Source of the DNA: an uncultured Rubrobacteraceae bacterium
Lineage (GTDB): Bacteria; Actinomycetota; Rubrobacteria; Rubrobacterales; Rubrobacteraceae
Direction: 5' to 3'
Length of the DNA stretch: 15,439 nt
Assembly (NCBI GenBank): GCA_902806105.1
Contig: CADCVI010000043.1
Coordinates: forward strand, 1-15,439
The translations under genes were made by a program, and so were the position numbers. Shown in pieces: positions 775 to 15,056 of this stretch. The notes under the pieces are model-generated. The model did not search any database. It was given only the letters and a program-made list of their open reading frames with translations, and had not been told where the DNA came from. Each line of letters starts with the position of its first letter. Positions within the stretch are counted from its first letter, which is position 1.

Positions 775-1992
775 CTAGCGGTAGACGCCGTTGTGTCCCA
801 GGCTGTAGCGTCCGGGGTTCGGGAAGTAGGCGATGCCGTGGGGCTGGGTGCCGGTGTAGATCGTGCTCAAAGTCTCTCCGGTCCCGGTGTCGATTACGTA
901 GACGGCGCCGTCGTAGCGCCCGGAGACCCAGAGTTGGCGGCCGTCCGGCGAGAGCTGGAACATGTCCGGGCTGCCCCCCGTCGTCCAGGTGTCGGTGACC
1001 TCGCGTGTCGCGAAGTCTACGACGGAGATCGTACCCTCGAGCCGGTTGCTCACGTAGAGCGACTTCGTATCTCGCGAGACCTGCAACCCGTGCGCCCCCT
1101 CGCCGGTGGGGATAAAGTCGACCTCCTCCATCGTCTCCCCGTCTATCACGGAGAGGCCCATGGTGCCCTGGTTCGCGACGTAGAAGACCGAGCCGTCCGG
1201 CGAGAGCTTTATGTCGATGGGCAGCCCCCCGACCTCGGCGTGGTCCACGAGCTCCATCTTCTCGACGTCGACCTTGGAGACGACCCCGCTCCACTCGCTG
1301 CTCGCGAGGAGGTACCTCCCGTCCGCCGAGAAATCCATGTGGTCCACGCCCGGCCAGGGGATATAGACGCTCCCCAGAAGCTCCCAGGTCTCCGGGTCGC
1401 GAAACTCCAGCGTCTGGACGCGCTCGGCGACTACGACGGCCTTCTCGCCGTCGGGGGTGTAATAGAAGTTGTACGGGAACGGGGCCTCGATCGTCTCCTT
1501 CGGCCGTCCCGTCCTCGCGTCTATCACCGTGAAGGTGCCGGAGGCCTCGTTGTTGACGTAGAGCTCGGTCATGTCCCAGGACGGGGTGACGTGATACGGA
1601 AGCTCCCCGACGGCGAAGCTATCCACGACCTCGAAGGTCTCGGGGTCCACGACGCTCACGGTGCCGTCTATGATGTTCGGCACGTAAACCCTCTCGGGGA
1701 TGCCCTTCAGATCCTCCCTGACCTCGGTGGACATCGCCCCCGAGTAGACGTTCCCCACGGGGTCCTTCTGGCTCGCCTCTTCGACCCTGGCCGTGGCTTC
1801 GGACGGATCGGCCCCGGCCTCCTCTTCCACGGTAGTCGACGGCTTCTCCTCGACCGGGGGTGCTGCGGGGTTCTCCCCGGCGGCGGTCTCGCCGCTCTCG
1901 GCAGTCCCGATGACATCGGAGGGGGCGCATCCGGTCAGGGGCCAGGCTACAAGAAGTAGAACGAGCAGGTACTTGTGAGCGGAACCCCCCAT
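775..1992 (-). CDS. YVTN-type seven-bladed beta-propeller lipoprotein, function unknown
   Basis: A 405-residue secreted lipoprotein. The signal peptide (residues 1-21, KYLLVLLLVAWP core) ends in a lipobox, L-T-G-C, with the cysteine at about residue 22. Lipidation would anchor it to the outer face of the membrane. A low-complexity acidic/proline linker follows to about residue 75. The rest is a run of about 40-residue YVTN/NHL-like blades with recurring pieces such as VYVPNIIDGTVSVVD, LYVNNEASGTFTVID, FYVANQGTMGLSVID, LYVSNRLEGTISVVD and LWVSGRYDGAVYVID, each with an SPDG-type turn. This fits a seven-bladed propeller. Such proteins bind ligands, metals or partners and show no catalytic motif here. 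ATG at 1990-1992 is preferred because it directly precedes the basic signal-peptide start; a TTG nine bases upstream is also possible. Neither has a strong ribosome site. It follows the lyase gene after 65 bases and may share its transcript. Confidence 0.85.
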   Translation of the reverse strand: MGGSAHKYLLVLLLVAWPLTGCAPSDVIGTAESGETAAGENPAAPPVEEKPSTTVEEEAGADPSEATARVEEASQKDPVGNVYSGAMSTEVREDLKGIPERVYVPNIIDGTVSVVDPETFEVVDSFAVGELPYHVTPSWDMTELYVNNEASGTFTVIDARTGRPKETIEAPFPYNFYYTPDGEKAVVVAERVQTLEFRDPETWELLGSVYIPWPGVDHMDFSADGRYLLASSEWSGVVSKVDVEKMELVDHAEVGGLPIDIKLSPDGSVFYVANQGTMGLSVIDGETMEEVDFIPTGEGAHGLQVSRDTKSLYVSNRLEGTISVVDFATREVTDTWTTGGSPDMFQLSPDGRQLWVSGRYDGAVYVIDTGTGETLSTIYTGTQPHGIAYFPNPGRYSLGHNGVYR

Positions 1993-2057
1993 CTCGCACA
2001 AAATATCACATGGTCTGCGATTCGTGTCCTCTTATTCGTCGTCTTCTCGCTGGTTAT

Positions 2058-2981
2058 CTAGCCGTTGGGTCGTGTCTCCGACGCACGCACGAGATCCAGG
2101 GTGTTACGGGCCATCCTGATGGAAGCGGCGTCGACCATCTTTCCGTCCATGTTTATGGAACCGGAGCCTGCGGCCTCGGCCTCTTCGTAGGCACCGACCA
2201 CCTTCTTCGCCCACTCGACCTCTTCTTCCGTCGGTGAGAACAGCTCGTTGACGGCCTCGATCTGCCCCGGATGGATGCACCATTTCCCATCGAAGCCTAT
2301 CGAGCGGGAGAGCAGACAGCTCCTGCGCAGCCCCTCCTCGTCTCGAAAGTCCGCGACCGGGCCGTCCACCGCGCGCAGCCCGGCGGCGCGGGCGGCGACG
2401 ACGATACGGTGCATGACGTAGTGGAAGCGGTGTCCGGGGTAGAGGTCGTCCCACTCGTCCGCCGTCCCGATGCTCGTCTGGGGCATCCGCACGCTCGCGG
2501 CATAATCCCCCGGACCGAAGTGGAGCGCCTCCAGGCGATCGGTCGCGCGCGCAATAGCGTCGATGTTCACGAGGCCGAGGGCGGTCTCGATCTGGGCCTC
2601 CAGCTTGACCTTGCCCGGCTCCAGTCCCGATGCCGCTTCGACGCCGCGCAGGAGCGTATCCAGCGTGACGAGATCCTCGGGAAGTTCGACCTTCGGGACT
2701 AGGATGAGGTCCAGGCTCTCCCCCGCCTCTTCGGCCACCTCGATCACGTCCCGGTAAAAGTACGGGGTGTCGAGCGCGTTCATGCGGTACATCGTCGGCC
2801 TGCCCCGCCAGTCGCGCTCGTTGACGGCCTGGATCACGTTCTTGCGCGCCTCGGCCTTCGAACCCGGAGCCACAGCGTCTTCGAGGTCGAGAAAGAGAAG
2901 GTCCGCCCCGGAGGACAGACCTTTCTCGACCATCTTCGTGCTCGACGCCGGGACCGCGAGGACCGAGCGGGAGACCCTCAC
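2058..2981 (-). CDS. L-malyl-CoA / beta-methylmalyl-CoA lyase (HpcH/HpaI-CitE superfamily)
   Basis: A 307-residue TIM-barrel enzyme of the CitE/HpcH superfamily. It fits the Mcl1 type best: reversible cleavage of malyl-CoA to acetyl-CoA plus glyoxylate, or of beta-methylmalyl-CoA to propionyl-CoA plus glyoxylate. Visible motifs are RSVLAVPAS (5-13), FLDLEDAVAP (30-39), an arginine in MYRMN (66), E132 in IETALG, LHFGPGDYAASVR (153-165, D159), DGPVADF (206-212), GKWCIHPGQIE (232-242) and MDGKMVDAASIRMA (278-291). The last blocks closely resemble proteobacterial Mcl1. E132 and D159 fit the Mg ligands known in the family. The GTG start has an AGGGG site 8 bases upstream and lies 11 bases past the glcF stop, so the gene is in the glycolate operon. 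Sharing glyoxylate as substrate or product makes the placement logical. Other CitE-like activities, such as malyl-CoA thioesterase, cannot be excluded by reading. Confidence 0.85.
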   Translation of the reverse strand: MRVSRSVLAVPASSTKMVEKGLSSGADLLFLDLEDAVAPGSKAEARKNVIQAVNERDWRGRPTMYRMNALDTPYFYRDVIEVAEEAGESLDLILVPKVELPEDLVTLDTLLRGVEAASGLEPGKVKLEAQIETALGLVNIDAIARATDRLEALHFGPGDYAASVRMPQTSIGTADEWDDLYPGHRFHYVMHRIVVAARAAGLRAVDGPVADFRDEEGLRRSCLLSRSIGFDGKWCIHPGQIEAVNELFSPTEEEVEWAKKVVGAYEEAEAAGSGSINMDGKMVDAASIRMARNTLDLVRASETRPNG

Positions 2982-2992
2982 CGGACTTGCCC

Positions 2993-4522
2993 CTACCTGT
3001 TCAGCAGCAGGGTCTCGACCGACTTCCCGCGAATGCTCGCGTCGAGGACCTCCATCGGGTGGGCCATCGGCATGGAGTGACCCATGCGCCTGAGGCTCGC
3101 CTGGATCTGGAGTATGCACCCCGGGTTCGACGTAACGACCATGCGCGCTCCGGTGTTCAGGACGTTCGTCGCCTTGCGGTCGCCAAGCTCCGTGGCGGGC
3201 TCGGGCTCGACCATGTTGTAGATGCCCGCCGAACCGCAGCAGATCTCGGCCTCCTTTATCTCCCGCACCTCCATCCCCGGAATCTGCTTGAGCGTCTGGC
3301 GCGGCTGCTTCCTTATCCCCTGCGAATGCGCGAGGTGGCAGGCGTCGTGGTACGCCGCCGCGACCGGCAACGGGTTCCTCTCGGCGACCGGCCCGAGCTC
3401 CTGCAAAAACTCCGAGACGTCGCGAACCTTGGCGGAGAAGTTGCGCGCCTTCTCGGCGTAGGCCCGATCGTCTCGCAGGAGGTAGCCGTACTCCTTGAGG
3501 GTAGAGCCGCAACCGGCGGCGTTGATGATGATCCGGTCTACCCCTGCGTCCTCGAACTCGTCTATAAGCTTGCGCGCGAAGCCGAGGAACTCCTCCTCGC
3601 GCCCGGCGTGGACGCTCAGGGCGCCGCAGCAGCCCTGCGCCTTCGGCGTGACGACGTCGCAGCCCTCGGCGGTCAAGACCCGCACGGTGGCGGCGTTGAC
3701 CTCGGAGAAGAAGACGCGCTGGACGCAGCCCTTGATAAACCCGACGGTCATGCGCTTCTCGCCCTCGGCCGGGGTGAACTCGGGGACCTCCTGCTGCTTC
3801 GTGAGCATCGGCATGAGGGCCTCCATGGCGCGCATGCGCTTGGGGAGCATCTTCATCACGCCGGCCTTGCGCAGCATGTCGCCCACGCCGAAACGCTGGT
3901 AGAGCTTCAGGGGGGCGGCGGCCACGCGGAGGCGGTTCGGGTAGGGGAAGAGCTGGAAGATCATCTCGCGGAACGCCTTGTCCTGCGCCGATCGCTCGTA
4001 GCGCCGCTCGACCTGCCCGCGCGTCGCCTCGATAAGCTTGTCGTACTGCACCCCCGACGGGCACGCCGTGACGCACGCCATGCAGCCGAGGCAGAGGTCG
4101 AAGTGGCGGACCATCTGATCGTTGAGGGGCTCCTCTTCGAGGCCCTTGTTCATGAGGTAGATGCGCCCGCGCGGGCTATCCATCTCCTCGCCGAAGAGGA
4201 CGTACGTCGGGCACGTCGGCAGGCAGAAGCCGCAGTGGACGCAGTCGTCGATGAGGTCCTTCTCCGGCGGGTGGTGGGAGTCGAAGGCAGGGAAGATCAC
4301 GCTGCCCGACTCGGTCTTGCGCCCGATACCCACGGTCTGCATGACGGACCCTCTTGAGGCGAAGGTGTCTGCGGGCACGTCCTCGGGGCTGCCGGCGCCT
4401 ATCGCGCCCGCCATCCCCTCGTCCGCCAGGGTAGAGGAGTCGCGCTTGCGCTCGGTGGCATCGGTCGCGTCGTACGGGTTTCCGTCCTGGCGAGGGTCCA
4501 ACGAGCCGTTGTCCTTGTCCAC
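2993..4522 (-). CDS. glcF: Glycolate oxidase iron-sulfur subunit GlcF
   Basis: The 4Fe-4S electron-transfer subunit of the membrane-associated glycolate oxidase complex, 509 residues from the GTG start. Two ferredoxin-like clusters are intact: C94-x2-C97-x2-C100-x3-C104-P and C144-x2-C147-x2-C150-x3-C154-P. Two CCG (cysteine-rich) domains follow, with GCCGALSVHAG and ICCGSAGIYN, plus HDACHLAHSQGI between them. E. coli GlcF has about 407 residues; the excess is mainly an 80-residue polar N-terminal extension that looks disordered. Two starts are plausible. GTG at 4520-4522 has GGGAGG six bases upstream and shares one base with the glcE stop (TAGTG). ATG at 4340-4342 (residue 61) has AGAGGG six bases upstream and would give 449 residues. 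The glcE overlap suggests translational coupling. It passes electrons from the flavin subunits, probably to quinone. Confidence 0.95.
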   Translation of the reverse strand: MDKDNGSLDPRQDGNPYDATDATERKRDSSTLADEGMAGAIGAGSPEDVPADTFASRGSVMQTVGIGRKTESGSVIFPAFDSHHPPEKDLIDDCVHCGFCLPTCPTYVLFGEEMDSPRGRIYLMNKGLEEEPLNDQMVRHFDLCLGCMACVTACPSGVQYDKLIEATRGQVERRYERSAQDKAFREMIFQLFPYPNRLRVAAAPLKLYQRFGVGDMLRKAGVMKMLPKRMRAMEALMPMLTKQQEVPEFTPAEGEKRMTVGFIKGCVQRVFFSEVNAATVRVLTAEGCDVVTPKAQGCCGALSVHAGREEEFLGFARKLIDEFEDAGVDRIIINAAGCGSTLKEYGYLLRDDRAYAEKARNFSAKVRDVSEFLQELGPVAERNPLPVAAAYHDACHLAHSQGIRKQPRQTLKQIPGMEVREIKEAEICCGSAGIYNMVEPEPATELGDRKATNVLNTGARMVVTSNPGCILQIQASLRRMGHSMPMAHPMEVLDASIRGKSVETLLLNR

Positions 4523-5814
4523 TAAATGCCTCCCACGAACCTACCCGGGTTCATTATGCCCCGGGGATCGAACTTCTCTTTCAAGCGCCGGGTGAGCTCC
4601 AGCCGGGTGCCCATCGGCCCCCACACCTCGACCCGCTTCTTGAACGACACGGGGGCCTCGCGCACGACGACGCTCCCGCCCCTCCTCACCCAGATCTCCC
4701 TGAGCTCCTCCGTCACCGCGACCCGCCCGTCCTCGTCGCCTCCCGAGAGCCCGACGTACGCGACCCCGGTCGCCGCCTGTCCGGTAACGCGCGGGGCATC
4801 GAGGCCCTTGCGCGAGCACGCGCCGACCGTCGAGTCGAGGACCCCGGTGAGCTCGGCGGGCGGGAAGGATACCTTCAAGGTGACGTTGTCCGATGCGTCG
4901 GGGCCTCCGGGCGGAGAGAGCGGCCCGAGGTTGCCGGCCTCCTCGTCCGAGAGCGTCCGGGTCTCGCCGAAGCCCTTGAGTAGAAACTGGGCGGTCTCGG
5001 CCTGCGCCTCGACGGCGGGCGGTATCCCCTCGACGAGGACCGTCAGCAGCTTCGCCCCCTCGCCCCAGTGGAGCTCCACGGCGCTCGGGACGAGCTGGGA
5101 GTGCATGATGGCCTGCGTCGCCTGGCCCGCCGCCGCCGCGTCAGGAAGCTCGACGGCCACGGTGCGCGCCGACTCCGGGAGGGGATGGAGCCGGAAGTTG
5201 GCGCTGGCGATCACGCCGAGGGTCCCCAGGGAGCCGGTAAACAGCTTCCCGAGATCGTAGCCCGCGACGTTCTTGACTACCTTGCCGCCGGCCTTGGCGA
5301 TCGTCCCGTCCGGCAGGACTACCGTGACCCCGATGATCAGGTCCCTGAGCGTCCCGTAGCGGTAGCGCCGGGGCCCCGAGGAGTTCGCCGCGACGATGCC
5401 GCCGACGGTCGCCCCCGCCTCTCGCTCCGGCGGATCTACGGCGAGCATCTGGTTCGAGCCCGCGAGCTTCTCCTGGAGGTCGTGGAGCTTCAGCCCGGCC
5501 CCGGCCCTCACTACCTGGTCGCCGGGGACGTGCTCTATGACCTCGTTCATCCTCACCGTGCTCACGACGAGGTCGGCCTCGCGCGGCGGGTTCCCAAGGG
5601 ACATGCTGGTGCCGCCGCCCCGGGGGGAGACGGCGAGCCCGCCGTCGTTCGCGAGCTTCAGGAGGGCGCTCAGCTCCTCGACCGTGCCGGGCTCGGTGAC
5701 GAAGGAGGGACGGACGCCCTCGATCGCGTCCGTATCCTGAGCCTCGCGGGCGTTCGCCTCGCCGACTATGCCTTGCAGGTCTCCGAGGGAGACGTTGTTC
5801 GTGCGCGTATCCAT
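4522..5814 (-). CDS. glcE: Glycolate oxidase FAD-binding subunit GlcE
   Basis: The second flavin subunit of glycolate oxidase, 430 residues. The N-terminal PCMH-type FAD domain covers about 35-215, with VSPRGGGTSMSLG, the AGATVGGIVAANSSGPRRYRYG block, DLIIGVTVVLPDG and NVAGYDLGKLFTGSLGTLG. The C-terminal half is divergent, but the tail carries the family ending FDPRGIMNPGRF. This pattern (short C-terminal domain, GPRRYRYGTLRD, KVVKNVAGYDL) separates GlcE from GlcD. ATG has a GGAGG site eight bases upstream that begins within the glcD stop codon region, and the gap to glcD is 13 bases. The stop TAG overlaps the glcF GTG by one base. It is somewhat longer than E. coli GlcE (about 350). All three subunits are needed for the E. 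coli enzyme, and all three are present here in the order D-E-F. Confidence 0.95.
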   Translation of the reverse strand: MDTRTNNVSLGDLQGIVGEANAREAQDTDAIEGVRPSFVTEPGTVEELSALLKLANDGGLAVSPRGGGTSMSLGNPPREADLVVSTVRMNEVIEHVPGDQVVRAGAGLKLHDLQEKLAGSNQMLAVDPPEREAGATVGGIVAANSSGPRRYRYGTLRDLIIGVTVVLPDGTIAKAGGKVVKNVAGYDLGKLFTGSLGTLGVIASANFRLHPLPESARTVAVELPDAAAAGQATQAIMHSQLVPSAVELHWGEGAKLLTVLVEGIPPAVEAQAETAQFLLKGFGETRTLSDEEAGNLGPLSPPGGPDASDNVTLKVSFPPAELTGVLDSTVGACSRKGLDAPRVTGQAATGVAYVGLSGGDEDGRVAVTEELREIWVRRGGSVVVREAPVSFKKRVEVWGPMGTRLELTRRLKEKFDPRGIMNPGRFVGGI

Positions 5815-5827
5815 GTTCGCGGCCTCC

Positions 5828-7282
5828 CTAGAAGTTCTCTGCGAGGCCGGCCTTCTGGACCGGATGCATGTGGAAGGGACCGGGCTTCTCGCCGCACAGG
5901 CGCGGGGTCGGGAAGACCTTGCCGGGGTTGCAGATGTGGTGCGGGTCGAAGGCGCACCGGAGGAGCTGCATGGTGTCCATGTCCTCGTCGGTGAACATCT
6001 TCGGCATGTACTTCTTCTTGTCCAGCCCGATGCCGTGCTCGCCGGTGAGGGAGCCGCCGTGCTCCAGGCAGGTCATCACGATCCTGCCGGCCAGGTCCTC
6101 GGCCTGCTCGGCCTCGCCGGGGACATCGTTGTCGTAGAGCACCAGGGGGTGCAGGTTGCCGTCTCCGGCGTGGAATACGTTCGCCACACGCATCCCGTAC
6201 TCCTCGCCGAGCTGGTTTATGCGCTTGAGGACCGCCCCGAGCTCCGTGCGCGGGACTACCGCGTCCTGCACGTAATAGTCGTTCGCGATGCGCCCCATCG
6301 CGGCGAAGGCGGCCTTGCGGCCCTTCCAGAAGAGCGCCCGCTCCTCGTCGTCCTCGGCGATCCTTATCTCCGAGGCGTTCGCCTCCTCGCAGATCTTGAT
6401 GGTCTGGTCGAACTGGCTCGAAACCTCCGCCTCCGGTCCGTCGAGCTCGACGATGAGGATGGCCCCGGCCTGCGGAAAGCCCGGATGGACCGCGGTCTCG
6501 ACCGCCTCGATGCACAGGGCGTCCATCATCTCTATGGCGGCGGGGACGATGCCGCTCCCGATGATCCCGGAGACCGCGTCCCCCGCCTCCTCCGTGTCCT
6601 TGAAGGCGGCGAGCACCGTCCTCACGGACTCGGGCTTCCTCACGATGCGCAGCGTGATCTTCGTGGCGATGCCGAGCGTCCCCTCGGAGCCTACAAAGGC
6701 CCCGAGAAGCTCGTAGCCGGGGGAGTCGGGGGCCTTGCCGCCGCCGACGTTGACGAGAGAGCCGTCGGGCAGCACGATCTCGGCCCCCATCACGTGGTTC
6801 GTGGTGAAGCCGTACTTCAGGCAGTGGACGCCGCCCGAGTTCTCGGCGAGGTTGCCGCCGATGGAGGAGATAATCTGGCTCGCCGGGTCCGGCGCGTAGT
6901 AGTAACCCTCGTCCGCGACCGCCTGCGAGACCCAGATGTTTATGACCCCCGGCTCGACGACGACGCGCTGGTTCGCGATGTCGACCTCGATGATGCGCCG
7001 CATCCTGCTCAGGACGATCAGGACGCCCGACTCGACAGGGAGCGCCCCGCCGGAGAGTCCGGTGCCGGAGCCGCGGGCTACGAACGGTATGCCCTCGTCG
7101 TGGCAGTACTGGACGATTCTCTGGACGTGCTCCGTGGATTCCGGGAGGACGACTATCTCGGGGATAACCCGGTAGTTCATGAGGCCGTCGCACTCGTAAG
7201 CCCGGAGCTGTTCGCGTTCGGAGATCACCCCCTCGGGCCCTAGGATCTCCGTCATGCGGTCCACAAGTCGACTGCTAGCCAT
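5828..7282 (-). CDS. glcD: Glycolate oxidase catalytic subunit GlcD (FAD-linked)
   Basis: The catalytic flavoprotein that oxidises glycolate (and often D-lactate) to glyoxylate, 484 residues, close to E. coli GlcD (499). The PCMH FAD domain spans about 35-220, with PFVARGSGTGLSGGALP, IGGNLAENSGGVHCLKYG, ADEGYYYAPDPAS and FVGSEGTLGIATKITL. The FAD-oxidase C-terminal domain carries NVFHAGDGNLHP and SLTGEHGIGLDKK, holding the conserved histidines, and ends with FDPHHICNPGKVFP. ATG is preceded by AAGGGA/GGGAG at suitable spacing. It is downstream of glxR by 43 bases and upstream of glcE by 13. D-lactate dehydrogenase of the same fold is an alternative by sequence alone, but the adjacent GlcE and GlcF and the glyoxylate-processing genes point to glycolate. 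Confidence 0.95.
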   Translation of the reverse strand: MASSRLVDRMTEILGPEGVISEREQLRAYECDGLMNYRVIPEIVVLPESTEHVQRIVQYCHDEGIPFVARGSGTGLSGGALPVESGVLIVLSRMRRIIEVDIANQRVVVEPGVINIWVSQAVADEGYYYAPDPASQIISSIGGNLAENSGGVHCLKYGFTTNHVMGAEIVLPDGSLVNVGGGKAPDSPGYELLGAFVGSEGTLGIATKITLRIVRKPESVRTVLAAFKDTEEAGDAVSGIIGSGIVPAAIEMMDALCIEAVETAVHPGFPQAGAILIVELDGPEAEVSSQFDQTIKICEEANASEIRIAEDDEERALFWKGRKAAFAAMGRIANDYYVQDAVVPRTELGAVLKRINQLGEEYGMRVANVFHAGDGNLHPLVLYDNDVPGEAEQAEDLAGRIVMTCLEHGGSLTGEHGIGLDKKKYMPKMFTDEDMDTMQLLRCAFDPHHICNPGKVFPTPRLCGEKPGPFHMHPVQKAGLAENF

Positions 7283-7325: not shown

Positions 7326-8213
7326 CTACCCTATCTCGTGTTGCGCGAGGTCCTCGATGAAGGTCAGGATCGCCGAGTGGTCCCGGTCGCCCCGCCCCCT
7401 CACCTTCAATGCCTCCAACATCTGATCCACTATAGCGGTAACCGGCAGCGACACCCCGTACTCCCTGCCTGCCGCGAGCGCTATCCCGAGATCTTTGTGG
7501 TGCAATTCTACCCGAAAGCCCGGATCGAAGGAATGATCCAAGAACTTGTCCCTCTTTACCTCCATGACCTTGTTCCCCGCGAGCCCGCCCGAGAGGACGT
7601 CAAGGATCTTCGACGGCTCCACCCCGGCCTTCGACCCGAGCACCAGCGCCTCCGAGACGGCCTCGATGGTCAGCCCGACCACGATCTGGTTGCAGGCCTT
7701 CACGACCTGCCCCGCCCCGGCATCTCCAACGTGCGTGACGGTCTTGCCCATGACCTCGAACAGCGGACGAGCGCGCTCGAAGTCCTCCTCGCTCCCGCCG
7801 ACCATGATCGAGAGCGTCCCGTCCTTCGCGCCCACGTCCCCGCCCGAGACCGGCGCGTCGATCATCGAGGCACCCTTCTCGCGGGCCTTCCCGGCGAGCG
7901 CCCGCGCCACCACCGGGGAGATCGTGCTCATGTCGACTATAAGCGAGCCTTCCCCGATCCCTTCGAGCAACCCGCCCTCCCCCGCGACGACCGCCTCGAC
8001 GTCAGGGGAGTCCGGGAGCATGGTGACGATGATCCCGGAGCTCTCGGCTACCGCCCTGGGGGTATCTGCCACCGTGGCGCCGTCGCCCGCCAGCTCTTCG
8101 GCCTTCTCCTTCGTGCGGTTGTACAGGACGAGCTCGTGGCCCGCCTCGATGAGGTTCTTCGCCATCGGGCGTCCCATGATCCCGAGCCCCACGAAACCGA
8201 TCTTCTGCGCCAC
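7326..8213 (-). CDS. glxR: 2-hydroxy-3-oxopropionate (tartronate semialdehyde) reductase
   Basis: A 295-residue beta-hydroxyacid dehydrogenase that reduces tartronate semialdehyde to D-glycerate with NAD(P)H. The Rossmann motif is at 6-20 (GFVGLGIMGRPMAKN), the substrate-binding signature DAPVSGGDVGAKDGTL at 119-134, and the catalytic lysine is K172 in GAGQVVKACNQ. Length matches E. coli GlxR/GarR (292-294). The GTG start has an excellent AAGGAGG site six bases upstream, immediately after the hyi stop codon; the gap to hyi is 11 bases. Relatives such as 3-hydroxyisobutyrate dehydrogenase share these motifs, so the specific substrate is assigned from the hyi, gcl and glycerate kinase neighbours. 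Whether it is closer to GlxR or GarR cannot be settled by eye; the two catalyse the same reaction. Confidence 0.92.
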   Translation of the reverse strand: MAQKIGFVGLGIMGRPMAKNLIEAGHELVLYNRTKEKAEELAGDGATVADTPRAVAESSGIIVTMLPDSPDVEAVVAGEGGLLEGIGEGSLIVDMSTISPVVARALAGKAREKGASMIDAPVSGGDVGAKDGTLSIMVGGSEEDFERARPLFEVMGKTVTHVGDAGAGQVVKACNQIVVGLTIEAVSEALVLGSKAGVEPSKILDVLSGGLAGNKVMEVKRDKFLDHSFDPGFRVELHHKDLGIALAAGREYGVSLPVTAIVDQMLEALKVRGRGDRDHSAILTFIEDLAQHEIG

Positions 8214-8224
8214 GTTATGCCTCC

Positions 8225-9040
8225 TTACAGCTTCAGATCCGACACGGCGATCTCCCCGTCCCGGCCCTCTTCGGGGATCCAGGCGAAGCTCTCCCCGGTC
8301 GAACCGACGGGGTTGTACTCCAGGCCGACGTAGCCTGAGTAGCCGAGGTCTTCTAGTTGAGCGAGGACGTAGGGGTAGTTGATCTCGCCGGTACCGGGCT
8401 GCCCCCGCCCCGGGGAATCGGCGATCTGGACGTGCCCGATCTCGCCTATGTACTCGCGCAGGTTGGCGACGAGGTTCCCCTCCATCCGCTGCATGTGGTA
8501 CAGGTCGTGCTGGATCGTCAGGTTCCCCCGCCCCACGCTCCTGACGAACTCGACGGCCTGCGCCGTCGTGTGCAGGAGGTAAGGCCCGTTCTCGAAGGTG
8601 TTGACTGCCTCCACGACCACCTCGATCCCGGCCTCACGAGCCCTGTCGGCCGCGAACCCGACGCTCTCGCGTGCGAGCGCTAGCTGCGCCTCTCTCTCCA
8701 TCCCCGGCGCCTCGTGCCCGAGGAGTATGTTCATCCTGCGGCACCCGATGGAACGGGCGAGCCCGATCGCCACGGGCACGTTCTCGCGGAACTCGTCCGC
8801 GCGCTCCGGGTCGCCCGCGAGCCCCCTGTCCCCCGCCGCCATGTTTCCCGCCGAGAAGTTCATGAGCGCGACGGAGACGCCCGCCGCCTTCACGGCCCCG
8901 GCTACCTCGTCGAGATCCCCCACCTCCCCACCCGGCCACCAGAACTCCACGGCCCCGAACCCGGCCTCGGAGACCCGCGCGAAACGCTCCAGGAACGGAA
9001 CCTCCTTGAACAGGATGGAGACGTTGATGCTGAACCTCAT
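8225..9040 (-). CDS. hyi: Hydroxypyruvate isomerase
   Basis: A 271-residue TIM-barrel sugar-isomerase-like (AP endonuclease 2 fold) enzyme that interconverts hydroxypyruvate and tartronate semialdehyde. Start and length (E. coli Hyi 258) agree with the family: it opens with RFSINVSILFKEVPFLERF. Expected metal and catalytic residues are present: E144 in VVVEAVN, H178-D179 in IQHDLYHMQ, Q205 in GHVQIADSPGRGQPGTGEIN, and E241 in GLEYNP. The first gene of the minus-strand operon, its ATG has a GGGGAG site seven bases upstream. The 112 bases between it and the iclR stop hold the likely promoter and a palindromic operator at 9123-9140. In the pathway it connects hydroxypyruvate to the carboligase product pool. 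Confidence 0.93.
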   Translation of the reverse strand: MRFSINVSILFKEVPFLERFARVSEAGFGAVEFWWPGGEVGDLDEVAGAVKAAGVSVALMNFSAGNMAAGDRGLAGDPERADEFRENVPVAIGLARSIGCRRMNILLGHEAPGMEREAQLALARESVGFAADRAREAGIEVVVEAVNTFENGPYLLHTTAQAVEFVRSVGRGNLTIQHDLYHMQRMEGNLVANLREYIGEIGHVQIADSPGRGQPGTGEINYPYVLAQLEDLGYSGYVGLEYNPVGSTGESFAWIPEEGRDGEIAVSDLKL

Positions 9041-9152: not shown

Positions 9153-9941
9153 CTACTGTGGATCGAAGGTCTCGGATAGGGCATGGGCTATGCGTTTGAG
9201 CTGGGGGACGAGCTCGTCCACGCGCTTGCCGTGCAGCCGGCTGGCGGGGCCCGAGAGGCTCATGGCTGCGAAGATGGCGCCGTCGGGGCCGAAGACGGGG
9301 GCGGCGAGACAGCGGACGCCCTCCTCCTGTTCCCCGTGGTCGACGGCGTAGCCCTGGCGCCGTATCGTCTGCAGCTCCGCGCGCAACTGCGCGTGGTCGG
9401 TAATGGTGCTCGCGGTCCGGCGGGGCAGATCCTCTTTCCCCAGGACGAAATCGACGAGCCGGGGCGGCTGGTAGGCGAGTAGGACCTTCCCGGTGCCGGA
9501 CGAGTGCAGGGGTACCCGGTTGCCGGGCTCGGTGAAGATACGGAGCATCCTCTCCGGGGCCACCTGCTCGACGTACACGGTCGAATTGCCCTCCAGCACG
9601 GCCAGGTTGGCAGTCTCCTGGCTCGCCCTCATCAGCTCCTCCAGGAACGGCAGGGCCAGCGGGCCTATGCGTTCCCGCGTGGCGACGGCCATCGTCAGGG
9701 CCTTCAGGCCGAGGCCGTACCTGCGGCTCTCCCCGTTCCTGCGGACGTAACCCCGGGAGACAAGCGTCCCGAGCAACCTGTGCACCGTCCCGACCGCGAG
9801 CCCGGTCGCCCCCCCGATCTCGCTGACCCCGAGCTCCCCCTCAGACCGGCTCAGAAACTCCAGTATGTCCAGGGTCCGCTCCACGGATTGAACCCCGCTC
9901 TCCCGCTGCCCGGACGCACTCCCCGACGCTGCTCCCGCCAT
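9153..9941 (-). CDS. IclR-family transcriptional regulator of the glyoxylate cluster
   Basis: A 262-residue IclR-family regulator. The N-terminal winged helix-turn-helix is at about 15-80: SGVQSVERTLDILEFL, then GVSEIGGATGLAVGTVHRLL as the recognition unit and RGYVRR as the wing. The C-terminal effector-binding domain (about 90-255) has VPLHSSGTGKVLLA, GYAVDHGEQEEGVRCLAAPVF and AMSLSGPASRL, typical of the family. ATG at 9939-9941 is chosen because GGAGG precedes it by four bases; a GTG at 9981-9983 would add 14 residues with poorer spacing. It lies between the hyi operon (same strand, downstream) and gcl (divergent). Paired palindromes flank it. By position it is a functional analogue of E. 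coli AllR, which senses glyoxylate or allantoin; here the likely effector is glyoxylate or glycolate (inference). Autoregulation is plausible because the operator at 10027-10044 is 85 bases upstream of its start. Confidence 0.9.
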   Translation of the reverse strand: MAGAASGSASGQRESGVQSVERTLDILEFLSRSEGELGVSEIGGATGLAVGTVHRLLGTLVSRGYVRRNGESRRYGLGLKALTMAVATRERIGPLALPFLEELMRASQETANLAVLEGNSTVYVEQVAPERMLRIFTEPGNRVPLHSSGTGKVLLAYQPPRLVDFVLGKEDLPRRTASTITDHAQLRAELQTIRRQGYAVDHGEQEEGVRCLAAPVFGPDGAIFAAMSLSGPASRLHGKRVDELVPQLKRIAHALSETFDPQ

Positions 9942-10026
9942 AACCCCTCCGACTCCGCTCTGCTCCTCACGGGAGCCTCTCACGGCCTCCCCATGCCGTC
10001 AACAGAGAGCGCGGCCAGTAGCGTGT

Positions 10027-10112: not shown

Positions 10113-11882
10113 ATGACCAGGATGGACGTCATGGACGCGGTGGTTGGGGTGATGGAGGACGAGGGGGTGGAGCTCGCCTTCGGGGTGCCGGGGGCGGCGA
10201 TCCTGCCTTTGTACAAGGCGTTGAGCCGGTCCGAGAAGATAAGGCATCTCTCGGTGCGGCACGAGGAGGGCGGGACGCACGCGGCGGACGGGTATACGCG
10301 GGTGACGGGGAAGGTCGGGATCAACATAGGGACCTCGGGGCCTGCGGGGACGAACATGATCACGGGCCTGTACACGTGCATGGCGGACTCCATCCCCCAG
10401 ATCTGCATCACCGGGCAGGCCCCCACGAACGTCCTGCACAAGGAGGCGTTCCAGGCGGTGGACATCGTGGAGATCGCCAGGCCCGTGACCAAGTGGGCGG
10501 TGCAGGTGAGGGAGCCCGGCCAGCTTGTGTGGACCTTTCGGGAGGCTTTTCGCATAGCCCAGGAGGGTCGTCCCGGCCCGGTCCTGATAGACCTGCCGCT
10601 CGACGTGCAGACCGCAGGGCTCGAGGTGGACTTCGACCCGGGGCGGGGAGGTCGGCTGGGCATCACGAAGCCCGAGCCGAGCCCGAACGCCATCCGCCAG
10701 GCCGTCCAGATGCTCCTGGAGGCCGAGAGGCCCATTCTGATGCCCGGCGGCGGGGTAGTCGGCGCCGACGCCTCGGAGGAACTCATGGCGCTCGCGGAGT
10801 ACTTGCAGGTCCCGGTGAGCCCGACGTACATGGGCAAGGGGGTCATCAACGAGGACCACGAGCTGTACGCTGGCATCGTCGGGTTGCAGACCAGCCAGCG
10901 CTACGCGAACGCGATCTTTCTGGAGAGCGACCTCGTGGTCGGGATCGGCAACCGCTGGGCGGAGCGGCACACCGGGGATCTGGACGTATACAGGGGGGAT
11001 CGCCGGTTCGTCCACGTGGACATAGAGCCGCGCCAGATAGGCCGGGTCTTCCCCCCCGACCTCGCCGTGGTCTCCGACGCGAGGCTGGCGCTGGAGGCGA
11101 TGCTCGACGCCGCGAGGGACGCGGCCTCGGCGCGAGAGCCAGGCCCGTGGGTCGAACGGGTCGACGAGCTGCGCTCCACGCTCTTGAGGAAGATGGACTT
11201 CGACAACGTTCCGGTCAAGCCCCAGCGGGCCTTCAAGGAGATGAACGAGTTCTTCGACGAGGACGCGATCGTGGTGACCGCCATCGGGCTTTACCAGATC
11301 TTCAGCGGCCAGTTCCAGAAAACCTACAAGCCGCGCCACTACATCTGCTGCGGGCAGGCGGGGCCTTTGGGCTGGGAGGTGCCGGCGTGCATCGGGGCGA
11401 AGCTCGGCAAGCCGGAGAGCACCGTCGTGGGCGTCGTCGGCGACTACTCCTTCCAGTTCCTCATGGAGGAGGTGGCGGTGGCCGTGCAGTACGGGGTACC
11501 CTACGTGCTCGTCATGCTCAACAACGGCTACATGGGCCTCATCCGCCAGGGAGAGCTCAAGTACGACATGAACTACGCGGTAGACCTCAGCTACAAGGGG
11601 CCGAGCAGCGACTACGGCATAGACAACGTCATGGTCATGGAGGCGATGGGCGCCCTGGGGAGGCGCGTGACGAGCCCCGAGGACATACAGGATGCGCTGG
11701 AGTGGGCTGTCCGGGAGAGCGAGGAGCAGCGGGTCCCCGCCCTCGTCGAGATCATGTGCGAGCGGGAGGTCAACGCCGCGATGGGCGTGTCCATAGACAA
11801 GATCAACGAGTACGAGCCCATCCTCGACGGGACCAGGGAGCGCTCGGGACAGGTCGTCGGGGGCGTCCCCGACAGGGATTAG
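10113..11882 (+). CDS. gcl: Glyoxylate carboligase (tartronate-semialdehyde synthase), with unusual Glu51
   Basis: A 589-residue ThDP enzyme (E. coli Gcl 593) that condenses two glyoxylates to tartronate semialdehyde and CO2. The start is the ATG with AAGGAG five bases upstream; the open frame extends further upstream but without gene character. Matches to Gcl include AFGVPGAAI (22-30), GTSGPAGTNMITGLY (73-87), ITGQAP (99-104), VGLQTSQRYANA (256-267), HVDIEPRQIGRV (301-312), DFDNVPVKPQR (362-372) and CGQAGPLGW (413-421). The ThDP/Mg region runs from GDYSFQFLMEE (443-453) to the NN pair at 470-471. Oddly, residue 51 is Glu (RHEEG), where E. coli has Val51, and residue 474 is Met where E. coli has Leu476; the active-site Ile is kept (I391). 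Gcl is therefore well supported by overall similarity and neighbours, but the active site departs from the family rule. It is followed by glycerate kinase after 10 bases. Confidence 0.93.
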   Translation: MTRMDVMDAVVGVMEDEGVELAFGVPGAAILPLYKALSRSEKIRHLSVRHEEGGTHAADGYTRVTGKVGINIGTSGPAGTNMITGLYTCMADSIPQICITGQAPTNVLHKEAFQAVDIVEIARPVTKWAVQVREPGQLVWTFREAFRIAQEGRPGPVLIDLPLDVQTAGLEVDFDPGRGGRLGITKPEPSPNAIRQAVQMLLEAERPILMPGGGVVGADASEELMALAEYLQVPVSPTYMGKGVINEDHELYAGIVGLQTSQRYANAIFLESDLVVGIGNRWAERHTGDLDVYRGDRRFVHVDIEPRQIGRVFPPDLAVVSDARLALEAMLDAARDAASAREPGPWVERVDELRSTLLRKMDFDNVPVKPQRAFKEMNEFFDEDAIVVTAIGLYQIFSGQFQKTYKPRHYICCGQAGPLGWEVPACIGAKLGKPESTVVGVVGDYSFQFLMEEVAVAVQYGVPYVLVMLNNGYMGLIRQGELKYDMNYAVDLSYKGPSSDYGIDNVMVMEAMGALGRRVTSPEDIQDALEWAVRESEEQRVPALVEIMCEREVNAAMGVSIDKINEYEPILDGTRERSGQVVGGVPDRD

Positions 11883-11892
11883 GGGTGATGGG

Positions 11893-13182
11893 GTGGAGCA
11901 GGATCTCAGAGGAGTGATGGAGGCCGGACTGGCCGCCGCCGACCCGGGGGACGCCGTCCGGCGTTTCCTGAAGGCCGAGGGCGGGCGCGTGGAGGTCGGC
12001 GGGGAAGCACTGGAGCCGGGGAGGGTCTTCGTCCTCGCCGTCGGCAAGGCCGCGGTCGCGATGGCCGGGGCGGCCGTAGAGCTCCTGGGCGACGGGCTCT
12101 CGGGCGGGCTCGTGGTCACGAAGGAAGGGAGCGAGGGTCCGGTGGAGGGGCTGGAGGTCATCGTAGCCTCCCACCCGGAGCCCGACGAACGGGGAGAGGA
12201 GGCGGCGCGGCGGGTCGAGGAACTGCTCGACTCCCTGGAGGACGGCGACGTGTTGCTCGCGCTCGTCTCGGGCGGCGCTTCGGCGCTGCTCGCGGACGTG
12301 GCCCCGGAGGTCGGGATAGAGAACCTGAAGAACCTGACGCAGTCCCTCCTCAGGAGCGGGGCGGCGATCGGGGAGATCAACACCGTCCGCAAGCACGTCT
12401 CGACGCTGAAGGGCGGAAAGCTCGTGCGCCGCGCCGCGCCGGCCCGCGTCGTGGGCCTCCTCCTCTCCGACGTGGTCGGCGACGAGCCGACCTCCATCGC
12501 CAGCGGCCTCACCGCCCCGGACCCGACGACCCTGGAGGACGCGAAGAAGGTAATCCACGAGTACGGCATCGAGCCGCCCGAGAGCGTCAGCGCGCACCTC
12601 GACGAGGCCGAGGAGACCCCGAAGCCGGGCGACGGGATCTTCGAGGGGATCATAAACCTCATAGTCGGGGGCGGCCGGCTCTCGGCGGCCGCCGCGACGG
12701 AGAAGGCGCGGGAGCTCGGTTACGAGCCGCTGCTGCTCTCGACCTACCTCACCGGCGACGCCCGCGACGTCGCCCTCACCTACGCCGCCATAATCCGGGA
12801 GGCCCTGGAGAGCGGCAACCCCGTCCCGCCGCCGTGCGCCATCATCTCGGGGGGAGAAGCGACGGTGGTGGTGCGCGGCGAAGGTACGGGCGGCCCGAAC
12901 CAGGAGTTCGCCCTCGCGCTCGCCACGTACCTCGAAGGGGTAGGGGGCTGGGGGGCTTTCGCCGTGGATACCGACGGCACCGACGGCCCGACGGACGCGG
13001 CGGGCGGCCTGGTCTCCGGGGAGACGGCGGGGGCCATACGCGAGGGCGGGGTCGAGCCCGGCGAGGCGCTCGGCGAGAACGACGCCTACAACGCCTTGAA
13101 GGCCGGGGGGGCGCTCGTCGTAACGGGGCCGACCGGGACCAACGTCAACGACCTCAGGGTGGCCCTGATCCAGGGCAGGTAG
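11893..13182 (+). CDS. Glycerate 2-kinase (MOFRL/GckA-TtuD type)
   Basis: A 429-residue kinase of the GckA/TtuD (DUF4147 plus MOFRL) family that phosphorylates D-glycerate, typically to 2-phosphoglycerate, which enters glycolysis through enolase. Visible blocks are VLAVGKAAVAMA (47-58), ALVSGGASALL (123-133), INTVRKHVSTLKGGKL (162-177), LLLSDVVGDEPTSIASG (189-205), the MOFRL part GGPNQEFALALA (333-344), and DTDGTDGPTDAAGG (359-372). The GTG start has AGGGG seven bases upstream and lies 10 bases after the gcl stop, so co-translation with gcl is likely. An ATG eight codons later has its GGAG too close to be preferred. It is not of the GlxK/GarK family used by E. coli, so gckA or ttuD would be the closer name; I leave the symbol open. 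Confidence 0.92.
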   Translation: MEQDLRGVMEAGLAAADPGDAVRRFLKAEGGRVEVGGEALEPGRVFVLAVGKAAVAMAGAAVELLGDGLSGGLVVTKEGSEGPVEGLEVIVASHPEPDERGEEAARRVEELLDSLEDGDVLLALVSGGASALLADVAPEVGIENLKNLTQSLLRSGAAIGEINTVRKHVSTLKGGKLVRRAAPARVVGLLLSDVVGDEPTSIASGLTAPDPTTLEDAKKVIHEYGIEPPESVSAHLDEAEETPKPGDGIFEGIINLIVGGGRLSAAAATEKARELGYEPLLLSTYLTGDARDVALTYAAIIREALESGNPVPPPCAIISGGEATVVVRGEGTGGPNQEFALALATYLEGVGGWGAFAVDTDGTDGPTDAAGGLVSGETAGAIREGGVEPGEALGENDAYNALKAGGALVVTGPTGTNVNDLRVALIQGR

Positions 13183-13280: not shown

Positions 13281-15056
13281 ATGTTTGACCAGTTCACGCA
13301 AAATTACACGCCCATAGGGAACGTGTATGTATCCGCGCTCATAGCGGCCATACCCATAGCGGTCATCCTGATAATGCTCGGCGTGCTCAGGACGAAGGCC
13401 CACTGGGCCGCGCTCGCGGGGCTCGTCTCGGCGTTCCTGCTGGCCGTGGTCTTCTACGGCATGCCGGTCGGCATCGCGGGCTCGGCGGCGCTCAACGGGG
13501 CGGCGTTCGGCTTCTGGCCGATCACATGGATCGTGATCAACGCCCTGTTCCTCCACAACCTGACCGTCGAGTCCGGCAAGTTCGACATCGTCAGAAACTC
13601 GCTCGCGAGCCTGACTACGGACCGCAGGATCCAGGCGCTCATCGTCGCCTTCGCGTTCGGCGCGCTCCTGGAGGGCATCGCGGGCTTCGGGGCCCCCGTT
13701 GCGATCACGGCGGCGATCCTCGCCTCCCTCGGGTTCAACCCGATCTACGCGGCGGCGATCGCCCTGCTCGCGAACACCGCCCCCGTGGCGTTCGGCTCCC
13801 TCGGGGTGCCGGTCACGACGCTCGGCGGGCTCGTGGCGCCGATCGTCGGCGGCGACGAGACGACGGTCACGAACCAGCTCTCGGCCATGATCGGCCGCCA
13901 GCTCCCGATCTTCTCCCTGATCGTCCCCGGCTTCATGGTCTACGTGATGGCCGGCTGGCGCGGCATGATCCAGGTCCTCCCCGCCATCCTGACGGCCGGT
14001 GTCACCTTCGCCGTCGGCCAGTTTTTCGCCTCGAACTTCCTCGGGCCCGAGCTTGTGGACGTGATCGCCGCCCTCCTCGCCCTGGCCGGCCTCTACCTGC
14101 TCCTGAAGGTCTGGCAGCCTGCCACCGCCTGGCGCTTCGAGGACGAGCCGGATGAGGATACGGCCGATACCCAGAGCACCCCGGGCGGACGCCGGGGCAG
14201 CGAGCCAGGCCCCGCCCTCGGCTTCGCGGCGGGCGCGGCCCCCCGCGGCTCTCGCGGCGGTTCCTCGACGTTCTCGGCCTTCTTGCCCTACATCATCCTG
14301 ATCGTGCTCGTGGTTCTCTCGCGCATCCAGACGCTCGTACCGAGCATCGAGGGTACGGCTCTCGACGTAACGGGCTGGCTCAAGACGGCGGATATCGAGT
14401 TCGGCTGGCCCGGGCTCAACGGGCTCGTCACGCGCGTCCCCCCGATCGTCTCCGAGCCTTCCCCCTACGAAGCCGTGTACTCGTTTACCCTCCTGTCGGC
14501 CGCCGGCACGGTGGTGCTCTTCTCGGCGATCGTGGCGGGCCTCGTGATGGGCCTGGGCTTCGGCACGCTCCTCAGGGTCTACGGCCGGACGCTCAACCAG
14601 CTCAAGCTCGCCATCCTGACCATCGCGCTGATCCTGGCGATCGCCTACCTCATGAACTACTCGGGAGCGACCTCGACCCTCGGCCTCGCGTTCGCCGGCA
14701 CGGGCTTCTTCTTCCCGTTCTTCTCGGCGTTTATCGGCTGGCTCGGCGTCGTCCTGACGGGTTCGGACACCTCGGCCAACGCCCTCTTCGGCCCGATGCA
14801 GACCATCACGGCCCAGAGCCTCGGCGTGGAACCGGCCCTCGCAGGGGCCACGAACTCCTCCGGCGGGGTCATGGGTAAGATGGTCTCCCCGCAGAACCTC
14901 TCCGTCGGCGCCTCGGCGATAGGACAGGTCGGCCGCGAGCCCGAGATCTTCAGGCTGACGATCAAGTGGTCCCTGATCCTGACGGTCGCCATGGGCATCC
15001 TCGCCATGATCCAGGCCTACCTGATACCCCAGATCATCCCCGTGCTGGGCGGATAA
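13281..15056 (+). CDS. LctP-family L-lactate/glycolate permease
   Basis: A 591-residue integral membrane permease of the LctP family (E. coli LctP and glycolate permease GlcA, about 550-560). It has a dozen or so hydrophobic segments, with the family blocks LLEGIAGFGAPVAI (129-142), GSLGVPVTTLGG (172-183), LTGSDTSANALFGPMQ (492-507) and NSSGGVMGKMVSPQNLSVG (525-543). A hydrophilic, Gly/Pro/Arg-rich loop at about 286-329 explains most of the extra length. By context it imports glycolate for the oxidase; lactate is also a usual substrate, so GlcA versus LctP cannot be decided. The ATG follows the kinase gene by 98 bases. The only ribosome-like site, GAGGGGAG, is about 12 bases upstream, longer than normal. 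The gene ends 18 bases before a strong terminator. Confidence 0.93.
   Translation: MFDQFTQNYTPIGNVYVSALIAAIPIAVILIMLGVLRTKAHWAALAGLVSAFLLAVVFYGMPVGIAGSAALNGAAFGFWPITWIVINALFLHNLTVESGKFDIVRNSLASLTTDRRIQALIVAFAFGALLEGIAGFGAPVAITAAILASLGFNPIYAAAIALLANTAPVAFGSLGVPVTTLGGLVAPIVGGDETTVTNQLSAMIGRQLPIFSLIVPGFMVYVMAGWRGMIQVLPAILTAGVTFAVGQFFASNFLGPELVDVIAALLALAGLYLLLKVWQPATAWRFEDEPDEDTADTQSTPGGRRGSEPGPALGFAAGAAPRGSRGGSSTFSAFLPYIILIVLVVLSRIQTLVPSIEGTALDVTGWLKTADIEFGWPGLNGLVTRVPPIVSEPSPYEAVYSFTLLSAAGTVVLFSAIVAGLVMGLGFGTLLRVYGRTLNQLKLAILTIALILAIAYLMNYSGATSTLGLAFAGTGFFFPFFSAFIGWLGVVLTGSDTSANALFGPMQTITAQSLGVEPALAGATNSSGGVMGKMVSPQNLSVGASAIGQVGREPEIFRLTIKWSLILTVAMGILAMIQAYLIPQIIPVLGG

Follow-up and report, generated by a model that had tools for sequence, protein, structure and literature searches.

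A predicted glyoxylate carboligase with glutamate at position 51, and the wide group of Glu-type relatives around it

Almost all ThDP enzymes use a glutamate to activate their cofactor. Glyoxylate carboligase (Gcl) of E. coli is cited as the exception to this rule (PMC3534367, PMC6350894), the latter paper's wording being "only one known exception". PMC3534367 (2012) gives the superfamily frequency of Glu51 as 94% and that of Val as 3%, and calls the Val substitution "characteristic of the entire family" of glyoxylate carboligases. This exceptional status bears on the role of the ThDP glutamate: should Glu51 persist in much of the Gcl family, the chemistry does not require its absence, and statements and motifs meant for the whole family would have to be corrected. 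Among the titles and abstract openings of the matches listed, a set from which subscription journals are mostly absent, no description of a Glu-type Gcl appeared, and an earlier notice is possible; likewise, no assay of such an enzyme was found among these matches and the passages available. Database entries already name many Glu-type members Gcl.

The window, the whole 15,439-nucleotide stretch of DNA that we analysed, contains such a gene, with the following features.

775-2001, minus strand: YncE-like beta-propeller protein adjoining the module
2058..2975 (start approximate), minus strand: CitE/HpcH-type C-C bond lyase (PF03328)
2993..4522, minus strand: glcF-like iron-sulfur subunit (PRK11274, 329.1 bits, below the cut-off of 333)
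4522..5814, minus strand: glcE-like FAD subunit (best model PRK11282, 171.6 bits, below the cut-off of 284)
5828..7282, minus strand: glcD-like, glycolate oxidase FAD subunit (TIGR00387, 523.8 bits, below the cut-off of 567.9)
7326..8213, minus strand: tartronate-semialdehyde (2-hydroxy-3-oxopropionate) reductase (TIGR01505, 379 bits, above the cut-off of 340.75)
8225..9040, minus strand: hyi, hydroxypyruvate isomerase-like (TIGR03234, 294.3 bits, below the cut-off of 353.45)
9153..9983, minus strand: IclR-family regulator, divergent from gcl (best models BhcR, PcaR/PcaU and IclR, all below cut-off)
10113..11882, plus strand: gcl, glyoxylate carboligase (tartronate-semialdehyde synthase) of the Glu51 type, 589 aa (NF008431 and Foldseek)
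10263..10265, plus strand: Glu51 codon GAG (Val51 in E. coli Gcl), motif RHEEGG
10353..10355, plus strand: Asn81 codon AAC (E. coli position 82, from alignment columns)
11376..11378, plus strand: Glu422 codon GAG (E. coli position 424, from alignment columns)
11532..11534, plus strand: Met474 codon ATG (Leu476 in E. coli Gcl), motif NNGYMGLIRQ, variable within Glu types
11893..13182, plus strand: glycerate 2-kinase, MOFRL class (PF13660 and PF05161; NF041176, 259.4 bits, below the cut-off of 550)
13281..15056, plus strand: lactate/glycolate permease, LctP family (TIGR00795, 510.4 bits, above the cut-off of 341.15)

An earlier note on this DNA had read codon 51 of gcl as glutamate where E. coli has valine and had pointed to Met474 in place of Leu476. 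Both readings hold up on inspection of the codons and on alignment with the annotated E. coli Gcl record (L133), whose same columns show Val51 and Leu476. The second is the less telling, since Met, Leu and Ala all occur at residue 474 among 46 core Glu rows (31, 13 and 2, respectively), and as a second marker it was dropped. Compared with E. coli Gcl (PDB 2pan, 8i01), the window protein has 50% identity, a fold TM of 0.93 and the same Ile393, Leu478, Ile479, Arg284 and Gln115 (E. coli numbering), and hyi adjoins gcl in both; it differs in carrying Glu51 for Val51, Glu for Thr424, Asn for Asp82 and Glu for Asn283. Its best PDB sequence match, the GCL of Deinococcus metallilatus (PDB 7ct6, 635 bits), reads RHVEG and thus has Val at the window's Glu51 position. 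Acetolactate (acetohydroxyacid) synthase large subunits share Glu51, Asn82 and an acidic residue 283 with the window protein (nine rows), whereas Val393, Met478, Val479, Trp482 and Asp112 set them apart, as does a separate branch of the tree.

The earlier note had also described the protein as Gcl-like along its full length. The motifs DFDNVPVKPQR and CGQAGPLGW are indeed present, and the score against the glyoxylate carboligase equivalog NF008431 (NF008431/PRK11269) is 884.4 bits, above the cut-off of 791. The older Gcl equivalog, TIGR01504, gives 701.6 bits and so falls 9.6 short of its cut-off of 711.2, and the acetolactate synthase model TIGR00118 gives 492.6 bits, under its cut-off of 538.35. 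When seven other Glu types were scored with TIGR01504, three lay over the cut-off (P0244, 946.9; L080, 826.3; L036, 720.4) and four under it (P0122, 689.2; L027, 693.9; L033, 670.1; L029, 598.9); this cut-off does not divide Glu types from Val types. At the position where PMC3534367 takes Val51 as the mark of Gcl, the window protein has Glu51. All six of its best PDB sequence relatives are glyoxylate carboligases. The AlphaFold model (mean pLDDT 83.9, pTM 0.88, with pLDDT <50 at residues 474-488) finds E. coli Gcl structures as its top Foldseek matches, the source of the identity and TM values given above. Its pocket residues Ile391, Leu476, Ile477 and Arg285 correspond to Ile393, Leu478, Ile479 and Arg284 of E. 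coli, and the acetolactate synthase signature (Trp482 and Val393/Met478/Val479, E. coli Gcl numbering) is absent, its places being taken by Gly480, Ile391, Leu476 and Ile477.

The same pocket recurs across the family (E. coli numbering from here on). Ile393 is found in 409/413 Glu rows (Val in 3, Cys in 1) and 73/73 Val rows, and Leu478, Ile479 and Glu112 in every row of either kind (413/413 and 73/73). The nine acetolactate synthases that were read combine Glu51 with their own pocket, that is, Val393, Met478, Val479, Asp112 and Trp482; Arg284 is common to both enzymes. The residues that we take to matter in the Gcl pocket were chosen partly from earlier work on E. coli Gcl, in which variants of I393 reportedly show that Ile393 keeps pyruvate out.

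Beyond residue 51, positions 424, 82, 396, 404, 412 and 448 split Glu from Val types almost without overlap over 488 rows. All 73 Val rows have Thr at position 424, where the 413 Glu rows have Glu (404), Asp (8) or Gly (1); at position 82 all 73 Val rows have Asp, and the Glu rows have Asn (412) or Asp (1). Val types further have Ser396 for Tyr, Leu404 for Gln and Trp412 for Tyr. Position 283 follows another pattern: it is Asp in 9/9 acetolactate synthases, acidic (Glu or Asp) in most Glu types, and Asn in 73/73 Val rows and most Inquilinus-type rows; N283Q is reportedly a change in engineered E. coli Gcl. The Inquilinus-type Gcl (P0243-P0360, found with L080 as query) resembles the window protein in having Glu51 and, nearly always, Glu424, Asn82 and Tyr396, and differs from it in Asn (rarely Ser) 283, Asp113 and Trp241, as in the Val clade. 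In the set retrieved with L080 (n=120, mostly Inquilinus-type), residue 283 is Asn in 117 and Ser in 3, Asp113 occurs in 119/119 readable rows and Trp241 in 120/120; Glu51 is present in 119/119 readable rows, residue 424 is Glu in 119 and Asp in 1, and residue 82 is Asn in 118, Asp in 1 and unreadable in 1. Judged by these residues and by the TIGR01504 score of P0244, the Inquilinus-type Gcl is an apparent intermediate between the two types.

Of the 488 Gcl-family rows, 413 have Glu at residue 51, 73 have Val and 2 cannot be read there; this ratio is not a natural frequency because 360 of the rows are close relatives of three Glu-type queries and duplicates were kept (loci and protein matches were not de-duplicated against each other, and the window appears twice). 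Matches spanning <480 residues, low-scoring matches, identical sequences and the very long branch L038 were left out before counting. Glu types are present in Actinomycetota, Chloroflexota, Methylomirabilota, Asgard archaea and Inquilinus, which we place in Pseudomonadota. A scan of contigs with the window protein returned 38 loci, 34 of them with Glu51 and one with Val (L030, Castellaniella); L026 and L035 end short of position 51, and L038 is a distant ThDP enzyme with Glu. These 38 loci were not used for frequency, as the scan patterns derive from the window protein and favour its close relatives.

Whole-genome samples were searched with NF008431 at E <= 1e-150, under which E. coli alone matched among 14 control genomes. 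Matches were found in 28/246 Actinomycetota genomes (11 at 1089-1135 bits, 17 at 848-915), 5/201 of Chloroflexota (682-911 bits), 6/95 of Methylomirabilota (795-847 bits), 3/148 of the Sifarchaeum (Asgard) phylum (721-727 bits) and 32/249 of Pseudomonadota (1081-1184 bits). Where residue 51 was read in the returned loci, it is Val in all above 1080 bits and Glu in all at 667-921 bits (Pseudomonadota G706 left out). By bit score, with five candidates scored per genome, none of the 28 matching Actinomycetota genomes (of 246) has both types. Among Pseudonocardiaceae, 124/200 genomes match, 35 with a protein >1030 bits, 92 with a lower-range one and 3 with both; the high-range loci have Val in 30/30, and 20 further proteins have Val in 5/5 of the high range and Glu in 15/15 of the lower range, the latter being a subset of the lower-range ones. 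The three genomes with both (L164/G1000, L165/G960, L166/G1079) hold within-cell pairs of a Val-type and a Glu-type gcl. In 17/18 genomes checked, a further match of 380-451 bits lies in the acetolactate synthase range (G014 gave only two short pieces), and acetolactate synthase is, by this score, covered by another gene in the genomes checked.

A Pseudonocardiaceae Glu-type query gave Glu51 in 120/120 of the matches listed, under names including Amycolatopsis, Prauserella, Saccharomonospora, Kutzneria and Actinopolyspora. Pseudonocardia dioxanivorans, for whose strain CB1190 Gcl activity has reportedly been shown, is not among the names shown for these 120, many of which are nameless or abbreviated entries. 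With L080 as query, Glu51 stands in 119/120 of the matches listed, the remaining protein being incomplete. An Inquilinus protein matched 53 of 398 Pseudomonadota genomes, many of them in the earlier 249-genome sample, at 61-67% identity; none of the intermediate type was found there, all 20/20 fetched loci having Val. In an Actinomycetota contig (L010), two Glu-type gcl genes stand in tandem (606-2384 and 3879-5471), the first with Ala at the Met474 position and the second cut by the contig end.

Three trees were built in IQ-TREE, using acetolactate synthases as the outgroup, by quick searches with SH-aLRT support only. Val rows were sampled to 26 in the first; in the other two, near-duplicates and some fast rows were thinned by hand and column 51 was omitted, and L038 was left out as a very long branch. 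The earlier note had left the placement of the window protein to such a tree, and the protein groups with Gcl, apart from the acetolactate synthases. In all three trees, the Val rows used form one clade (SH-aLRT 100) and the Glu types are paraphyletic, with Sifarchaeum-type and deep Chloroflexota sequences basal. The neighbour of the Val clade is L080 in two trees, and Inquilinus-type rows once these are added, at forks with support of 89-91. On the third tree (Gcl and outgroup rows, window positions), residues 51 and 81 change state once each, 422 four times, 394, 31, 474 and 242 five times each, 442 and 112 seven times each, and 284 nine times; among the linked positions only 81 is as clean as 51, and 422, 394 and 31 are less so. 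Forcing the Glu types into one clade costs 14.5 and 13.4 log units in two trees, with AU p of 0.303 and 0.311. Since the AU test does not reject one Glu clade, we do not claim paraphyly as proven: a Val clade nested inside the Glu types is the favoured arrangement, with which sister clades compete as compatible. The Glu types are thus probably a paraphyletic group and the majority of the rows collected, no small odd subfamily.

The acetolactate synthase outgroup has Glu51 in 9/9 rows, so that under either topology Glu is most simply ancestral, with one change from Glu to Val. The loss of Glu51 in the E. coli type looks like a single later change that does not characterise the family as a whole. 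Provided that the branching order is right, with Inquilinus-type rows beside the Val clade, Asn283, Asp113 and Trp241 predate this loss. The Glu-type finding, which we regard as well supported, runs against the family-wide Val51 statement of PMC3534367; in the rows collected, Val marks the E. coli-type clade alone.

The gene surroundings of the window accord with a Gcl. The earlier note had placed gcl in a complete glycolate module, and the module genes are present, with the reductase and the permease alone above curated NCBIfam cut-offs. The genes for use of tartronate semialdehyde near gcl comprise the TIGR01505 reductase, the Hyi-like isomerase and the MOFRL glycerate kinase, and the neighbourhood is a predicted glycolate-to-glycerate module. 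Across the family, a reductase homologue occurs in the fetched stretch of 29/43 Glu loci for which 2.8 kb or more of upstream DNA was available (26 lie on the same strand as printed and the other 3, as in the window, on the opposite one). The 14 loci that have none include the entire Methylomirabilota group of five (L016, L022, L023, L028, L033), where neither a reductase nor an isomerase homologue lies nearby in the fetched stretch, the Sifarchaeum-type L029, L182 and L183, the deep Chloroflexota L180 and L181, and L009, L010 (second copy), L012 and L176, of which L176 does carry an isomerase homologue. Setting aside, post hoc, the ten loci of the Methylomirabilota group, the Sifarchaeum type and the deep Chloroflexota leaves a reductase in 29/33. 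In the Methylomirabilota group, a TRAP transporter binding protein adjoins gcl in L028, and a transhydrogenase gene lies upstream in L022.

The Asgard loci L182 and L183 contain GlcD- and GlcF-like genes, and beside gcl both L182 and L029 have a 2-hydroxyacid dehydrogenase and a xylose-isomerase-like gene; the dehydrogenase of L182 has glyoxylate reductase as its best model (402 bits, below the cut-off of 455). The gene surroundings of L182, L183 and L029 carry the glycolate-pathway context to the base of the tree; the Methylomirabilota loci show no such context. At L182:1711-8246, the archaeal gcl stands amid GlcD, an Fe-S (CCG) protein and glyoxylate-reductase-like and xylose-isomerase-like proteins, a possible archaeal glycolate route.

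We interpret the window protein, with good though not full confidence, as a functional glyoxylate carboligase in which the ancestral catalytic glutamate has been retained. A one-codon sequencing or assembly error behind Glu51 has a negligible chance: we found nothing in its favour, and Glu51 stands in 120/120 of the matches listed with the window protein as query, among them its own copy, which refutes it. That an ordinary acetolactate synthase has been mis-annotated as Gcl is extremely unlikely; Glu51 itself and the 492.6 bits of TIGR00118 would suit such an enzyme, but that score is below the model's own cut-off while NF008431 is 93 bits above its own, acetolactate synthases branch apart with support of 99-100, and the window pocket is Gcl-like. 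The earlier note had left open whether the subfamily kept or regained the glutamate, and here the first half fares well and the second poorly. Regain, from a Gcl ancestor with Val to which the window lineage reverted, draws on the unfixed root of the Gcl tree and on a single Glu clade being compatible with the AU test. It needs two changes against one, since the outgroup has Glu, and the reversion must also restore Asn at position 82, the outgroup state in 9/9 rows; moreover, Glu occurs in four bacterial phyla and in Asgard archaea. We hold regain to be very unlikely.

For the kept glutamate, the following course is predicted from residues and gene context. Glu51 would hydrogen-bond N1' of the ThDP aminopyrimidine and promote the imino tautomer, through which C2 is deprotonated, and the glyoxylate-sized pocket (Ile391, Leu476, Ile477) would prefer glyoxylate over pyruvate. 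CO2 would be released, and the carbanion would then attack a second glyoxylate to give tartronate semialdehyde (two glyoxylates to tartronate semialdehyde, EC 4.1.1.47); this activity and the proton path are what we infer for the window enzyme. The product would go to glycerate via the neighbouring reductase, or via the isomerase and another reductase, and then to glycerate 2-kinase. The most probable mechanism is conventional ThDP activation by Glu51, with Gcl specificity coming from the remainder of the pocket. Acidic residues placed at position 51 of E. coli Gcl reportedly brought no overall improvement, so the Glu type must accommodate Glu51 otherwise; the E. coli type would have lost it once, with differences elsewhere (82, 424) presumably compensating in the Val clade. 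The altered acceptor preference suggested in the earlier note finds no direct support in the pocket residues, which are the same in nearly all rows of both types. We judge it unlikely, on balance, that the carboligase has a different chief substrate or acceptor (pyruvate together with glyoxylate, say, or an aldehyde) and owes its place in the glycolate module to descent. Residue 283 is Glu or Asp in the window-like and Amycolatopsis-like sets and 484 is often Leu or Thr, positions that we take to lie near the active-site entrance; 14/43 Glu loci are without a reductase homologue, and TIGR01504 is below cut-off for the window protein and 4/7 other Glu types tested. Against this stand Ile393, Leu478, Ile479 and Glu112, which nearly all Glu rows share with E. 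coli Gcl and by which they differ from acetolactate synthase, and a window context of glycolate oxidation and tartronate-semialdehyde reduction.

The Glu51 Gcl is, in its predicted activity, a variant of a known enzyme, and the Glu-type group is wide in the sequences collected. Taking residues and tree jointly, we lean towards a history in which Gcl arose and spread with Glu and lost it a single time, within a derived clade; Asn283, Asp113 and Trp241 would have appeared earlier (Inquilinus-type), and the loss would lie on the same branch as Asn82->Asp and Glu424->Thr, leaving two complete natural solutions and an intermediate for one reaction. If so, the long debate on the ThDP glutamate becomes testable in natural enzymes: Glu-type, intermediate and Val-type proteins would make the cost or gain of residue 51 measurable without point mutants of one enzyme. 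The Glu types would provide a naturally occurring control for a long-standing mechanistic question and new starting points for carboligase engineering.

One further gene of the window deserves mention. The CitE/HpcH-type lyase (2058-2975, minus strand) lies beside the glycolate oxidase genes and is perhaps, as a guess, a malyl-CoA lyase offering a second exit for glyoxylate.
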